NCBI RefSeq assembly: GCF_001715195.1
Contig: NZ_MDWE01000043.1
Location: 1 to 64,000 of the forward strand
Length of the DNA stretch: 64,000 nucleotides
Reading direction: 5' to 3'
Origin: Rhodohalobacter halophilus
GTDB lineage: Bacteria > Bacteroidota > Rhodothermia > Balneolales > Balneolaceae
Below, one piece after another: positions 1 to 6,201 of the stretch. The translations under genes and the position numbers were made by a program. The notes beneath the pieces are model-generated. The model worked only from the letters and a program-made list of their open reading frames with translations, was not told where the DNA came from and did no database searches. The first letter of the stretch is position 1, and every line of letters starts with the position of its first letter.

Positions 1-218
1 CAACAACAGCAGGTACAGATTTAAATGATGCCACAGCAGCAAACGCATTTACAAGCGAAGATAGTGTTGTATTGCTAAACGATGGATCAGGAACTGGTAC
101 TATCAGACTATTTGTTGGTGGTACACTTTATCAGGCAAGTGATAATACTGGAACTCTCACAACTCCTGGAAATTATAGCGGGTCCGGTACGATCAGCATA
201 AGCTACACCAGCTTTTAA
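1..218 (+). CDS. C-terminal part of a DUF4402-like secreted subunit (partial)
   Basis: An open frame runs in from the left edge (first full codon at base 3) and stops with TAA at 216-218, giving about 71 residues. The visible part is rich in Gly, Thr, Ser and Asn. It ends with the pattern LFVGGTL, then GNYSGSGTISISY. This resembles the C-terminal strands of DUF4402 proteins, which are secreted subunit-like proteins of unknown role. A strong terminator follows, then a PapD-like chaperone and an usher-like gene in the same direction, so a pilin or surface-subunit role is inferred. The signal peptide and N-terminus are outside the window. Confidence 0.6.
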   Translation, partial: TTAGTDLNDATAANAFTSEDSVVLLNDGSGTGTIRLFVGGTLYQASDNTGTLTTPGNYSGSGTISISYTSF

Positions 219-311: not shown

Positions 312-1142
312 ATGAAAATTCGTCTGCTTACACTTCCATTTGTCCTGCTGTTACTTTTTGCCGTCTCTGTTCAGGCTCAGGTAACGATCTCTCCAACAGC
401 TGTATTTTTAGATAAAAACAGTAAGGTTGGCTCCTTTTATGTCTCTAATCCATCTAACAGTGCAGTAGAAGTACGGCTTGGGTTTGAATTTGCCTACCCT
501 GCCACGGATGAAGACGGACGCGTTTTTCTTAATTACGAAGACGAAGAAGCAGAAGAGAAATTCTCATTAGTCCCACATTTACGGGCTTTTCCAACCACCT
601 TTGTTTTACAGCCGGGTGAACGTCAGACTGTTCGGCTTGTCGGAAGAATTCCACAAAGTTCTGATCCGGGAATGTATTGGACCCGAATGCGAGTATCGTC
701 CAATCAACTAACACCTCCGATTGGTGAAGTTGCGGAAGGACAGGTTGCAGCCCAGGTTTCATTTCAGATAGATCAGGTAACAGCTGTATTGGTTCAACAT
801 GGTGATGCAAGAACAGGCCTTGATATTCACAGTTCACAAGCCTCTGTTGAAGATGGCAGGCTTGTTATACTTACCAACGTAGAACGAACCGGGAACTCAC
901 CTTTTATCGGGAGTGTTGAAACCAGAGTACTTAATTCCAGCGGAGAACAAATTGATTCCCGCCGCTCATCCACGTCTGTCTATTTCCAAAATAATCAGCG
1001 TGTCGAGTTTGATGTTTCTAATTGGCCGGCAGGTGAATATACCGTCGAAACAACTTTTGAATCGCAACGAAATGATATTTCATCGCAAAACTTGCTGCAG
1101 ATTTCTGAAGTAAGTGAGCGAACAACATTTTCCATTGAGTGA
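312..1142 (+). CDS. PapD-like periplasmic pilus chaperone
   Basis: A 276-residue protein with a clear signal peptide (hydrophobic to about residue 22, cleavage after VQA). The N-terminal half has the PapD immunoglobulin-fold pattern: early strand VTISPTAVFLD, then VSNPSNSAVEVRL, then an FVLQPGERQTVRL segment like the conserved core of fimbrial chaperones. A second beta-rich domain follows from about residue 150. Family knowledge: such chaperones hold pilin subunits by donor-strand complementation and deliver them to an outer-membrane usher. Its stop overlaps the GTG start of the usher-like gene by 4 bases, which implies translational coupling. No Shine-Dalgarno sequence is obvious. The length is slightly above the usual 230-250 residues. 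Confidence 0.8.
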   Translation: MKIRLLTLPFVLLLLFAVSVQAQVTISPTAVFLDKNSKVGSFYVSNPSNSAVEVRLGFEFAYPATDEDGRVFLNYEDEEAEEKFSLVPHLRAFPTTFVLQPGERQTVRLVGRIPQSSDPGMYWTRMRVSSNQLTPPIGEVAEGQVAAQVSFQIDQVTAVLVQHGDARTGLDIHSSQASVEDGRLVILTNVERTGNSPFIGSVETRVLNSSGEQIDSRRSSTSVYFQNNQRVEFDVSNWPAGEYTVETTFESQRNDISSQNLLQISEVSERTTFSIE

Positions 1143-4100
1143 TTAAAAAATGCCTTCTGATAGCACATCTTACCCTTCTGTCGCTGAGCTTTTCGATTTA
1201 TGATTCGGCAGAGGCTCAAAGTGCAGACCAGGAGGTATTCCTTCAATTCCGCCACCAGGGCGTAGTTAACACATACGTCTCTGCAATTTACGATCAGGAC
1301 AAATTTTACCTTTCTGTTTCTGATCTCTTTGAGTCTCTTCGCATCGATTTTAGCATTGATCAGGGTTCACTGACGGTGTCCGGCAATTACCTGGGAAAAG
1401 GCAGATATGTGATTAACCTCGATTCCCGACAAGCACGATTTTTGGATCAGGAAATACTGTTAACCGCCGATGATTACATCATCACGGATTTTGGGTACTA
1501 CCTTGTGCCGGATATCTATTATGAACTGTTTGACATGGAGTTCATTGTAGATTTTAGCAATCTGGCTATTTCTCTTGAGTCTCCCGATACAATGCCTATA
1601 GTAGCTCAGCAAGAGCGAGAGCAGCGGCGTGAAAGACTTCTTCGCACACAAAGAGAGTTACGCAGAGACTTTTATCCACTTCGGTTCGATCGCAACAAGA
1701 GTGTTGTCAATGGCGGCTTTGTAGATTACAATCTTACCGCGAATATCAACCAAACAACCAACAGTTATCTATATAGTACAAATATTGGAGCTGAAATCAT
1801 TGGCGGTGATCTGCAGGGGACAATTTTTGGCAGTTATTCCCAAAACGCTTCATCTTTGCGCTCCAGTGGTCTTCGCTGGCGGTATGGTGTTCGTAATAAT
1901 GATTGGGTGAGTTCGGTTATCGCGGGTCAAACAACTGCGGAAGGACTTGCACCGGTGGCCTATACCGGAATTCGCTTGACCAATGAACCCATCGAACCGC
2001 GTTACCTTTATGATGAAACCGTATTTACCGGAAATGTAGATCCCGACTCAGAGGTTGAGCTCTATCGAAACAATACTCTTATTGATTTCACTCAAGCTGA
2101 TGGAAGTGGCTCATACCGTTTTACCATACCTCTCACGTATGGTACATCTAACTACACAATCAGGGCTTACAGTCCCACCGGCCAACTTACTGTACGAGAT
2201 GCCCGGCTTCAGATACCGTTTAATTTTTTACCACCCGGAGAGGTTAATTACACCATTAATGCCGGACGTATTGATAATCCGATTGCAGGATCAACAGAAC
2301 GCGGACTTGTTTCTAAAGCAAATGTAAGCGCCGGTCTCACAGATCGATTTACAGCGACGGGAGGTGTAGAATATTTCGAAGATTTTCATGATGACCTGCC
2401 GACCTTTACAGGACGAATCTCATCTAGGGTTTCCGACAGCTACCTTCTTTCATTTGAAGCAGCAAATAATGCTTTTTATCGGGCAAGTGGAAGCGTCATC
2501 TACCCAAATAATACCAGCCTAAACCTTGATTACACATACTACAATACACAAGGCGGAATTTATAACAGCAGTCGAAACCAATCTTCTATCCGGGCCAATC
2601 TCTTCACTCCATTCAGTATTGGAGACTGGCCACTGTTTTTACGTTGGTCTGTGACCAATGAACAGCGCGAAACCGGAGCTGTCACGCGCTATAGAGTAGA
2701 TTTCAATACCCGTATTGGAAGAGCTAATCTGCGCTTTGGTTACCGGGACACTCAACTCGGCAGGCTCTCATTTGATACGACACCTGTTGCACGTTTGAAT
2801 TCTTCGGTTACCTATAATTTCTCACGAAGCAGGGACATTCCCTCTCCTTTACGAAGTCTTTTTATAAGAGCCCAAACAAACTTTATTCCGTCAATTTCAC
2901 GGTTTGAAGATGCGGAAATACAGTTTAGCAGAAATATTACAAGAAGAGGTCGTCTCCAATTTTCAGCTGGACGTAATTTTATCGGTGACTTTAATCTCTT
3001 CCGCTTCTCTTTAACATTCGATTTCAATTCTATTCGATCTAACACTACTGTTCGTTCTACCCGTAACAGCACTACGCTTACACAGAGCCTGAGAGGATCC
3101 GTAGGTTACGACTCAAACCATAACAATTTTCATTTCACAAACCGACAGCAGGTTGGCCGCTCGGGTGTAGCCGTACGTATGTATGTAGACAGTAACAATA
3201 GCGGCCGTTATGATGAAGGGGATGAACTAATCCCTGATAATGCAATTCGTATTGACCGTGCCGGAGGTAATAGCTTTTCGAAGGAGAATGTACACTACAT
3301 ATCCCAGCTTCAGCCTTACAGGCAGTACAACATGACGGTAAATAAGGGATCAATATCTAATCCTCTGCTGGTGCCGGAACTGGAGCAATTTTCCATTGTT
3401 ACAGATCCCAATCAATATAAGCTGATTGAGATACCTCTTTACATGTCAGGTATTGTTGAAGGGAAAATTGAACGTCAGATGCCAAATGGCGAAATGAGTG
3501 GTCTGGGCGGACTTCGACTTTATCTGAGACAAATCAATGTTCCAGAAGGAGCAGAACCTCATACCGAGGAAATTCGAACTTTTTCTGATGGAAGCTTCTA
3601 CACTTACGAAGTTCCTCCAGGTGACTACGTTATAGAACCCGATCCAACACAACTCAATTTTCTGGACGTAACACCTGACGTTGCTACCCTGGAATTTGAA
3701 GTACGACCGCTTGCAGAGGGTGATTTTGTTGAAGGTTTAGCTATGACTCTTTTACCGTCCGATGATCCGGTTCGAAAAGAGTCCGTACCTGATACACCTG
3801 TAATAGCACTGACAATTCTTGGTCTTAATGGAAGTGACATATCTGTACCTCAAAATGAAAACTGTAGCTATTCGATTCATTTATCATCATTCAAAAGTTT
3901 TAGCGAGGCAATCGATTTTGCGTCACATTCAGAACAGTTTACAAACCTTGAACTTGATATAAAGTTTAATTCCAATACAGGACTCTATAGTGTACAAACT
4001 CCGGATTTGTCTGACAACGACAGCCTTAACCGCACCATTGCAGACTTCAGGGCCGGTGGGCTTACTCAGGTAGCAATACTTCACAATTGTGAATATGATG

Positions 4101-5506
4101 AAGACGAAGCTGAATTCAATATAAATCTGGCTTCCTTTGATAACAGAAGCCGGGCAATATCTTTCAGGGATCAGCTACAGTCAGAGCTTGGATTCCAGAA
4201 TCTGTACATTTATCCAGACAGAAATACCGATCGTTTCAAAGTTTTGGTAGGTCCTTTTCCTACACAAAATGAACTTATTCGATTTGCTCACAATACTTTC
4301 TTTGATGAACGATACAACGATCTGCTTGCATCCATCCAAGCAGAAACTACTGCTCCTGTATCGACTGATCTTACTTATTTGATCAGAATTCAGTCATTCG
4401 ATGATGAAGAAAGCGCACAGTCGTTCGTTGATCAAAATAGAGACAGACTGGATCAGGAGCTTCAGGTAATTGAAGGTAATGACGGACAGTTTGAAGTTGT
4501 CACACAACAGCGTGCTCAAACCCTGGATGAGATCAGAGATATTAATGAATCTATTACTGCAGCCACAGGCATAAGACCACGTGGAATCATGATGTACGAA
4601 CTTCATGAACAGGATCCAGATACATCAAAAGCTGCAGCACAGCCGGAAGTCATAGAGATACTTGAAGAGGAGGAGTTTGTTACTGAAGCTGATACTGCCG
4701 AAACAGATCAATTACCTGTTGAAATTTCAATTCCTACGATAGAAGAATCAATTTCATGCTTTTACCCTATTCAGGTAGGAAGTTTTGGCAATATGTATGA
4801 AGCTCAGAAAAACGCAGATAATATTGGTGAGCGTATAGATGAAGAAGTCAAGTTAATATACAATGCCGATACAGATCTATTTGCGCTTCGTACAGATCCA
4901 ATTGAAACAGTAGAAAATGCATTGCTTCAACTTCTTTTCTTCCGCGATCGTGATTCCTATAACCAATATGCTATCGTAGGACAGTGCGATATAGATATTG
5001 AATCTATTGAGAATCAATATGCACGATTCGTCATACCCATTGATACAACTGCAGAGCAAAATCAATCGGTTCAAATCAGAGAGGAATTGAACTTAAAATC
5101 AGGAGTTGAATTCTTTGCAAAAAGTGACACCTCTCAAGAAATTTTCACTATATACGCAGGACCTTTTAATCATTTAGACAGGGCAGATGAAGTTCGTAAT
5201 ATTCTCTTAGATATGAAGATTATCAGTGAAGATGTGCCTGTCATGTTAGATCCTGAAAAAGAAAATTCACTCGATCTCACTTTCAAGATTTATTTAGGAA
5301 ACGCAGATAACCTCTCTGAATATCAAAACACTGCATCAAAATATTCGCAAGATACTGATAGGAGATTGACTCTTGAAATCCTGGATGATCAAATACAGCT
5401 GTATGATCAAGAATTTTTCCGTTCCTGGTTAGAGTTCCTTCAAAAATTCGAAGAGATAAAAAATCGTACAGATCTGCGTCCTCTTGAAATTTTTATTCTT
5501 GAGTAG
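1139..5506 (+). CDS. Giant usher-like outer-membrane protein with C-terminal SPOR-like repeats
   Basis: 1455 residues, GTG start inside the chaperone stop (GTGA overlap). A signal peptide covers about residues 1-27. An N-terminal domain lies at about 30-140. A beta-rich barrel-like region spans about 180-670, interrupted at about 290-380 by a plug-like beta domain ending in IPFNFLPPGEVNYTINAGR, which matches the usher pattern 'vPy...LrpG...Y....G'. An Asp/Asn-rich loop (DSNNSGRYDEGDE) lies near 683 and a carboxypeptidase-regulatory-like domain at about 760-890. From about residue 905 to the end come some six degenerate repeats with starts near 910, 993, 1079, 1206, 1295 and 1380. Each opens with a Y/F-x-I-x-L-x-S-F-type strand, and the better ones have a later 'F-x-V-x-x-G-P-F' strand, as in SPOR domains that bind denuded peptidoglycan. 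Ordinary ushers are 800-900 residues. Usher identity is inferred from the motif plus the chaperone; the SPOR-like assignment is by pattern only. Confidence 0.7.
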   Translation: MIKKCLLIAHLTLLSLSFSIYDSAEAQSADQEVFLQFRHQGVVNTYVSAIYDQDKFYLSVSDLFESLRIDFSIDQGSLTVSGNYLGKGRYVINLDSRQARFLDQEILLTADDYIITDFGYYLVPDIYYELFDMEFIVDFSNLAISLESPDTMPIVAQQEREQRRERLLRTQRELRRDFYPLRFDRNKSVVNGGFVDYNLTANINQTTNSYLYSTNIGAEIIGGDLQGTIFGSYSQNASSLRSSGLRWRYGVRNNDWVSSVIAGQTTAEGLAPVAYTGIRLTNEPIEPRYLYDETVFTGNVDPDSEVELYRNNTLIDFTQADGSGSYRFTIPLTYGTSNYTIRAYSPTGQLTVRDARLQIPFNFLPPGEVNYTINAGRIDNPIAGSTERGLVSKANVSAGLTDRFTATGGVEYFEDFHDDLPTFTGRISSRVSDSYLLSFEAANNAFYRASGSVIYPNNTSLNLDYTYYNTQGGIYNSSRNQSSIRANLFTPFSIGDWPLFLRWSVTNEQRETGAVTRYRVDFNTRIGRANLRFGYRDTQLGRLSFDTTPVARLNSSVTYNFSRSRDIPSPLRSLFIRAQTNFIPSISRFEDAEIQFSRNITRRGRLQFSAGRNFIGDFNLFRFSLTFDFNSIRSNTTVRSTRNSTTLTQSLRGSVGYDSNHNNFHFTNRQQVGRSGVAVRMYVDSNNSGRYDEGDELIPDNAIRIDRAGGNSFSKENVHYISQLQPYRQYNMTVNKGSISNPLLVPELEQFSIVTDPNQYKLIEIPLYMSGIVEGKIERQMPNGEMSGLGGLRLYLRQINVPEGAEPHTEEIRTFSDGSFYTYEVPPGDYVIEPDPTQLNFLDVTPDVATLEFEVRPLAEGDFVEGLAMTLLPSDDPVRKESVPDTPVIALTILGLNGSDISVPQNENCSYSIHLSSFKSFSEAIDFASHSEQFTNLELDIKFNSNTGLYSVQTPDLSDNDSLNRTIADFRAGGLTQVAILHNCEYDEDEAEFNINLASFDNRSRAISFRDQLQSELGFQNLYIYPDRNTDRFKVLVGPFPTQNELIRFAHNTFFDERYNDLLASIQAETTAPVSTDLTYLIRIQSFDDEESAQSFVDQNRDRLDQELQVIEGNDGQFEVVTQQRAQTLDEIRDINESITAATGIRPRGIMMYELHEQDPDTSKAAAQPEVIEILEEEEFVTEADTAETDQLPVEISIPTIEESISCFYPIQVGSFGNMYEAQKNADNIGERIDEEVKLIYNADTDLFALRTDPIETVENALLQLLFFRDRDSYNQYAIVGQCDIDIESIENQYARFVIPIDTTAEQNQSVQIREELNLKSGVEFFAKSDTSQEIFTIYAGPFNHLDRADEVRNILLDMKIISEDVPVMLDPEKENSLDLTFKIYLGNADNLSEYQNTASKYSQDTDRRLTLEILDDQIQLYDQEFFRSWLEFLQKFEEIKNRTDLRPLEIFILE

Positions 5507-5532: not shown

Positions 5533-5946
5533 TTAGAGGTAATGTATAGTTGCCATCTGGGTACCGTGATAAGTACCAGAACGATTAACACTCTTACTAT
5601 TTCGGGTTACAAATCTTAGATGAATTTCTCCGTCTTCCCCTCTCTCAATTATCATCTCAGCATCTAATTTCCAATCTTCTTGTCCATTGGTCAACTCTAC
5701 GTTATCACCGGCTTCAGTAAGAATTTCAGCCCCTTCAGGAATGTTCATCGTAAAATCACCATATACAGTCTCACCGTTTCGAATAGAAGTATCTTCCGCT
5801 TCATAATTTCTGGTGATTTGACTGCCATTAACAACTTCAACCCGAACCTGCATGGTTGCAGTTGAACTGGCTTGTGATAATGCATCTACAGCAGTTAAAG
5901 TAAATGCTGTGATGATCAGGGCCAATATGTTAATTCCCTTTTTCAT
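5533..5946 (-). CDS. DUF4402-like secreted subunit, second copy
   Basis: 137 residues if started at the ATG at 5946, which begins directly with a signal peptide (MKKGINILALIITAFTLTA, cleavage near ALSQA). An AGAGG lies 7-11 bases upstream; an in-frame start ten codons earlier lacks support. The mature part is a small beta-rich protein ending in GTYHGTQMATIHYL, the same terminal pattern (G-x-Y-x-G ... Y) as the partial subunit at the left edge and as DUF4402 proteins. It converges on the usher gene with 26 bases between the stops. Subunit function is inferred from this resemblance and the neighbours. Confidence 0.55.
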   Translation of the reverse strand: MKKGINILALIITAFTLTAVDALSQASSTATMQVRVEVVNGSQITRNYEAEDTSIRNGETVYGDFTMNIPEGAEILTEAGDNVELTNGQEDWKLDAEMIIERGEDGEIHLRFVTRNSKSVNRSGTYHGTQMATIHYL

Positions 5947-6201
5947 GATTGCCTCTCTAAAGCATTCTTGTTTCAACAGTAATATATTAGAATTTATTAA
6001 TATTATAAAAATCTAATTTTTGATGAGCTAAGAAGACTCTCTCAAAAACGGCTTTAGGTGTTAAGAGACTTTGATTTTTACACTTATTAGACTTTCAGAT
6101 GAGCGGATTGGTAGCTGTGAAATCAGTATTAGGAAAGGCGTGGAATACAAGATGGAAAGAAAATAGTTACTGTTTAAGTGGCTTGTAGTCGATATTTAAA
6201 A
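5947..6201. other. Intergenic region, no gene seen
   Basis: About 255 bases between the start of the minus-strand subunit gene and the terminator of the pdh genes. The part nearest the subunit gene (5975-6020) is very A/T-rich, with TAATATATTA-like stretches, and is the likely promoter zone for that gene. I see no coding frame or RNA in it. Confidence 0.4.

Follow-up and report, generated by a model that had tools for sequence, protein, structure and literature searches.

Ushers have so far been regarded as outer-membrane gates that stand alone and require no source of energy, and we know of no usher of the FimD/PapC type with a peptidoglycan-binding tail. The window, the stretch of 64,000 nucleotides analysed here, opens with a locus that raises the question of what such a tail would do on such a gate. 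One open reading frame (ORF) at this locus (Table 1) had been described from its sequence as an usher-like outer-membrane protein fused to about six SPOR-like repeats, whose periplasmic C-terminus would tie a pilus exporter to septal or remodelled cell wall. The first base of the window is base 1 of contig C38, from a genome of 3.1 Mb (G000; assembly 97.8% complete), and the closest named relatives of this genome are for the most part Balneolaceae MAGs.

Table 1. Features of the usher locus; positions are those of the window, except in the last row, where the locus is named.
Feature	Position	Strand	Basis
Fourth pilin-like gene, C-terminal end	3..218	+	Cut at contig start; open ORF with terminus SGSGTISISYTSF
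Putative periplasmic chaperone of the usher, 276 aa	312..1142	+	Weak PapD_N match (E 0.014); conserved usher neighbour
Usher with SPOR tail, 1455 aa	1139..5506	+	Intact ORF, GTG start
Predicted usher N-terminal periplasmic domain, residues 47-147	1277..1579	+	Well-predicted small domain preceding the barrel; FimD-like position in the model
Barrel region, residues 194-658, 6 + 18 = 24 strands	1718..3112	+	Model strands; FimD/PapC matches over model 154-644
Plug between barrel strands 6 and 7, residues 289-359	2003..2215	+	Six short model strands; sole Pfam Usher stretch
Two predicted C-terminal beta-sandwich domains, residues 703-873	3245..3757	+	Model strands; second matches CnaB/SdrD B-type domains
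SPOR unit 1, residues 909-984	3863..4090	+	Fold; RlpA SPOR superposition; 31 bits
SPOR unit 2, residues 993-1074	4115..4360	+	Fold; 32 bits; Pfam SPOR best stretch 993-1045; key Gln lost
SPOR unit 3, residues 1075-1153, degenerate	4361..4597	+	Fold; 13.8 bits
SPOR unit 4, residues 1206-1284, retains Q, F, R	4754..4990	+	Fold; 39 bits; residues
SPOR unit 5, residues 1297-1374, degenerate	5027..5260	+	Fold; 20 bits
SPOR unit 6, residues 1380-1455	5276..5503	+	Fold and alignment to relatives' intact SPOR units only
Convergent pilin-like gene (147 aa; probably an additional subunit)	5533..5976	-	Profile match, conserved place
Usher operons continuing into FliF-FliG, TPR lipoprotein, MotA and MotB with three SPOR units	L051:10012-15019, L055:11089-16035, L121-L125, others		Orthologous loci

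A divergent usher and its operon

The usher part was recognisable mainly by its predicted fold. Pfam Usher scored 18.7 bits on the 1455-aa ORF against a cut-off of 27.1 (E 7.5e-4) and matched the plug stretch only, and a sequence-profile search of the PDB with the usher as query returned no usher among its matches. The AlphaFold model, which was built on a 7-sequence alignment and reached a mean pLDDT of only 58 and a pTM of 0.39, showed six strands, a six-strand plug and then 18 strands, that is, a 24-strand barrel with the plug after strand 6, together with N-terminal and C-terminal periplasmic domains at the expected places. When this model was searched with Foldseek, the best 19 PDB matches were all FimD or PapC (top E 3.3e-22, 9fw9), and its superposition on FimD (3rfz) by VIA gave a Z of 16.0 with an rmsd of 8.5 over 384 residues at 13% identity. 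The second C-terminal sandwich, the sole C-terminal domain with a fold match, resembled CnaB/SdrD B-type domains (Z of about 11 by VIA). Because the PDB sequence-profile searches were uninformative, the identification rests on fold, genomic context and the weak Pfam match. As judged from the model, the ORF is a divergent chaperone-usher outer-membrane usher, and the usher identity proposed in the preliminary description was thus borne out by the structure prediction and Foldseek search suggested there.

The operon is consistent with this identification. The chaperone-like and usher ORFs overlap by 4 bases, and although the PapD_N match of the chaperone was below the Pfam cut-off and the chaperone as query found no useful match in a sequence-profile search of the PDB, its homologue adjoins the usher in nearly all relatives. 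The pilin genes are divided between two contigs. Contig C53 of this genome (L128) ends with three intact pilin-like genes and the start of a fourth, the first part of which (L128 3689-3985) runs off the contig, and the remainder lies at the beginning of the window. C53 and C38 appear to adjoin each other, and the pilin operon is split where the assembly is interrupted within the fourth pilin-like gene. The unbroken locus of a near relative (L038) has four pilin-like genes, then the chaperone gene and then the usher-SPOR gene. Since the end of C53 supplies the pilin genes and L038 gives their order, the window operon is very probably complete and only its assembly is broken. The four pilin-like subunit genes of the operon are small and encode secreted proteins, and the pilin-like proteins of relatives matched DUF4402 (1.4e-8 and 2.3e-5). 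The convergent gene downstream of the usher also encodes a secreted protein, which matched the pilin family profile with a probability of 96.8 (E 2.6e-10; the profile included one unrelated row), and it occupies the same place beside the usher in about 10 relatives. Its sequence suggests that the product is probably an additional pilus subunit.

The window usher resembles FimD/PapC in its modelled plugged 24-strand barrel, with the plug after strand 6, and in the places of a predicted N-terminal domain and two predicted C-terminal sandwich domains, and its putative chaperone and subunit genes likewise share an operon with it. It differs in a sequence that falls under the Pfam Usher cut-off and in a tail of the peptidoglycan-binding type.

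The SPOR tail and its possible functions

The tail was assigned to SPOR, as had been proposed, by sequence and by fold. Pfam SPOR scored 51.9 bits on the usher tail against a cut-off of 21 (E 9.6e-14). Against a SPOR profile from which the window's clade was left out, each of units 1-5 (Table 1) scored higher than the best of 500 shuffles of the tail (7.1 bits); by sequence, unit 6 could hardly be recognised. The model of residues 880-1455 (pLDDT 67, pTM 0.30), in which the units are plausible singly but their mutual arrangement is not, contained six consecutive units in the SPOR order of strand-helix-strand-strand-helix-strand, with the last strand unassigned in some. The repeat count and the coordinates given in the preliminary description were correct. 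By VIA, unit 1 superposed on the RlpA SPOR domain (6i05/6i09) with a Z of 11.0 and an rmsd of 1.9 over 74 residues, and unit 4 gave a Z of 10.1 to 6ozd and of 9.1 to the CwlC SPOR domain. With the tail as query, Foldseek alone returned only weak matches to various ferredoxin-like folds, whereas VIA ranked the RlpA SPOR domain first. In RlpA, Gln270, Phe274 and three arginines touch the denuded glycan (PMC6895207). Among the six window units, the glycan-contact Gln, Phe and Arg are all retained in unit 4 only, and the key Gln is replaced in units 1-3, 5 and 6. In its fold (units 1 and 4), its Pfam SPOR match and the Gln/Phe/Arg of unit 4, the tail is like those of the SPOR proteins RlpA, FtsN, DamX, DedD and CwlC. 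Known SPOR proteins typically carry one unit on an inner-membrane protein, a lipoprotein or a wall enzyme; in contrast, the window protein carries six of them in tandem on a secretion gate of the outer membrane.

The same fusion recurs widely in related genomes. Relatives of the window protein were present in 62 of 119 related genomes, 79 of the 394 genomes sampled from the phylum contained the usher core, and usher-SPOR proteins occurred in dozens of Bacteroidota genomes. All 18 usher tails of SPOR type that were scanned first exceeded the Pfam SPOR cut-off, as did two from another family of the phylum. The occurrence of this architecture in many genomes, some of them on very long contigs, ruled out an assembly artefact. 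In four ushers from two other lineages, an OmpA-type peptidoglycan-binding domain replaces SPOR at the same usher position (Pfam OmpA: L076 4e-11 and L077 2e-12; L114 3e-16 and L116 8e-18), and a few ushers have no tail. Within the terminal three-SPOR module, the first unit, which corresponds to window unit 4, bears the Gln in 24 of 26 ushers and in eight of nine MotB tails. Other arrangements were also observed, namely an usher relative whose N-terminus is extended by 568 residues of immunoglobulin- or fibronectin-like repeats (L112:6904-8607) and another kind of protein, apparently a small barrel of the outer membrane, that bears the same three-SPOR module (L071:14215-15861).

The topology of FimD/PapC ushers places the C-terminus in the periplasm, and from this topology it follows that the SPOR tail is periplasmic, as originally supposed. 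We consider, with a probability of roughly 0.7, that the window protein is a chaperone-usher pilus assembly platform whose periplasmic end would be tethered to peptidoglycan. Judging from the fold and the operon, chaperone-bound pilin-like subunits would be handed to the usher, pass out through the plugged 24-strand barrel and join into a pilus, as in FimD systems. The SPOR chain following the last usher domain would hang into the periplasm and grip the glycan mainly via unit 4. Such a tether would hold the gate and the pilus against a pulling force, and it may bias the gate toward sites rich in peptide-stripped glycan. The strongest comparative argument is that two different wall-binding domains, SPOR and OmpA, are found in one position, which suggests that the job of the tail is to hold the wall. 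The wall tie put forward in the preliminary description was therefore strengthened by the OmpA-type domain of the two other lineages. Targeting to septal or remodelled wall gained no such support, the glycan-contact residues being kept in only one unit of six. Points against a tether are the loss of the key Gln from five of the six window units, the poor sequence match of unit 6, and the modest confidence of the usher model together with its Pfam Usher score below the cut-off; moreover, a long and flexible tail might have its role in pilus assembly instead of bearing load.

Alternatively, the tail might serve mainly as a localisation signal that directs the usher to the division septum or remodelled wall, with pili made at new poles. 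The best-known SPOR proteins reach septa through denuded glycan, and unit 4 retains the binding residues (PMC6895207), but the OmpA-type domains found in the position of SPOR fit tethering better, and six units exceed the need of a localisation tag. We regard this explanation as unlikely, the support for septal targeting going no further than the behaviour of SPOR domains elsewhere. OmpA-type domains bind peptide-bearing peptidoglycan over the entire cell. SPOR folds can also mediate protein-protein contacts, and the tail could hold other periplasmic proteins, or complexes of pilin and chaperone, as a scaffold or clamp, most of its units having lost wall binding. The replaced Gln of the other five units would agree with this, as would the much faster change of the window tail, which is 43% identical to that of the nearest aligned relative, compared with 81% for the usher core. 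However, the Gln kept by nearly all ushers in the first unit of the terminal module and the substitution of an OmpA-type domain for SPOR make a scaffold quite improbable.

Tail exchange and flagellar-type motor genes

Besides the SPOR and OmpA types, a short TPR tail was found on the ushers of 20 Balneolales loci. In all 20, the next gene was a FliF-FliG gene (two of them truncated), whereas no such gene lay next to any of the approximately 29 SPOR- or OmpA-tailed ushers with readable downstream sequence. The fusion protein, usually of about 620 aa, joins the C-terminal ring region of FliF to FliG, with a membrane helix in between, and its PDB profile matches to FliG (6e-31) and FliF (7e-5) lay in the right order in one chain. 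At 16 of the 20 TPR loci, the FliF-FliG gene is followed by genes for a TPR lipoprotein, MotA and MotB, with operon-like spacing of 2-46 bases at L055. The MotA match was 1.6e-18, and MotB of these relatives showed the plug and OmpA regions. In Balneolaceae, MotB bears the same terminal three-SPOR module as the ushers, and in family f4 (L057, L087) it is short and without SPOR. At L056 (7892-9430) and L068 (7814-8635), the gene after the TPR-tailed usher encodes a truncated FliF-like protein that has lost the C-terminus of FliG, and MotA and MotB are missing; here a TPR tail accompanies the FliF-like ring even in the absence of a motor. One further usher tail consists of TPR repeats with a weak SPOR-like end (L111:9942-10880; E 0.0016).

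Several motor features are kept in these proteins, namely the channel Asp and the OmpA-type wall domain of MotB and the Pro of the conserved channel segment of MotA. The interface residues of Escherichia coli FliG are Arg281 and Asp289 (as cited in PMC12505986), and by our own residue mapping FliG_C has an Arg at the former site and an acidic residue at the latter. The proteins are thus like flagellar FliF-FliG, MotA and MotB in the order of FliF and FliG, in MotA, and in the plug, OmpA region and channel Asp of MotB. They are unlike the flagellar motor in that the genes lie behind an usher, that Balneolaceae MotB carries a SPOR array and that FliF is reduced to its C-terminal ring and membrane part. 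Nine genomes that carry the motor genes lack FlhA (G032, G044, G050, G054, G059, G062, G073, G079 and G094), and others have it (e.g., G037, G048 and G052). Lacking FlhA, many usher-motor genomes would be without flagella, and the nine genomes disfavour the possibility that the motor genes are part of a flagellum or its leftover. Many Balneolales also have a second FliF-FliG/MotA/MotB cluster without an usher (L078:7847-12904, L079, L080, L081 and L083), which includes an extra gene of about 370-390 aa; the L078 copy adjoins genes for a PBP1C-like transglycosylase and an alpha-2-macroglobulin. Searches of the window genome for MotA, FliG and FlhA gave no match, and no motor was found elsewhere in this genome. 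It is on this basis that the window genome is assigned to the tethered, motor-less state.

The two forms have been exchanged repeatedly. The usher-core tree implied at least five changes of tail type. Within one genus, L046 (SPOR) and L048 (TPR and motor) share 81% usher-core identity and the same downstream genes, but their tails are unrelated in sequence from about residue 872 onward. In the tree of three-SPOR modules, usher tails and MotB tails formed separate clades (SH-aLRT 98), and the tail of L046 clustered among the usher tails and away from MotB of the sister locus L048. These separate clades make recombination between two old alleles a likelier cause of the swap than repeated fusion. 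That usher-SPOR arose by deletion of the motor cassette, fusing the usher to the SPOR tail of its former neighbour MotB, would explain the same module on both proteins and the shared chromosomal sites, but the separation of the two kinds of tail on the unrooted tree and the placement of L046 disfavour such fusions if recent and repeated, less so a single ancient one, and make this origin very improbable overall. The SPOR tail is one state of a repeatedly switching module, the other state being a flagellar-type motor operon.

Proposed fixed and motor-linked usher pili

The strict correlation between tail and motor, together with the gene content, suggests how the second form might work. In sister lineages with a TPR-tailed usher, the gate may be coupled to a motor whose stator is fixed to the wall. 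The wall anchor would then have shifted from the usher to the stator in the motor allele, as expected if the gate has to move relative to the wall or is pushed by the rotor by way of the TPR tail of the usher. We tentatively propose, at clearly less than even odds, that pili of this lineage occur in two mechanical states at the same loci, either nailed to the wall by the SPOR or OmpA tail of the usher or coupled through TPR to an ion-driven FliF-FliG/MotA/MotB motor, the stator of which would be anchored in the wall mostly via the same SPOR module. The motor-linked allele, read from its gene content, could be more than a variant usher.

Neither the usher-SPOR nor the usher-motor form had a precedent that we could find in the open-licence literature, in which no paper dealt with an usher combined with SPOR, with an OmpA-type tail or with MotA/FliG, or with ushers of Balneolaceae; the preliminary description had likewise known of no usher with a SPOR tail. 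A 2025 survey of MotAB mentions neither ushers nor Balneolota (PMC12505986).

These results suggest that pili of this class can be either fixed to the wall or driven by a motor. An usher that brings its own tether to the wall offers an answer to how usher pili could be held under load. The motor-coupled state, if true, would represent a non-flagellar, motor-driven usher pilus, whether rotating or force-generating, and, provided that its parts cooperate, the flagellar motor family would then drive a second type of surface appendage. What FliG and MotAB drive besides flagella would in that case become testable in ordinary environmental bacteria.
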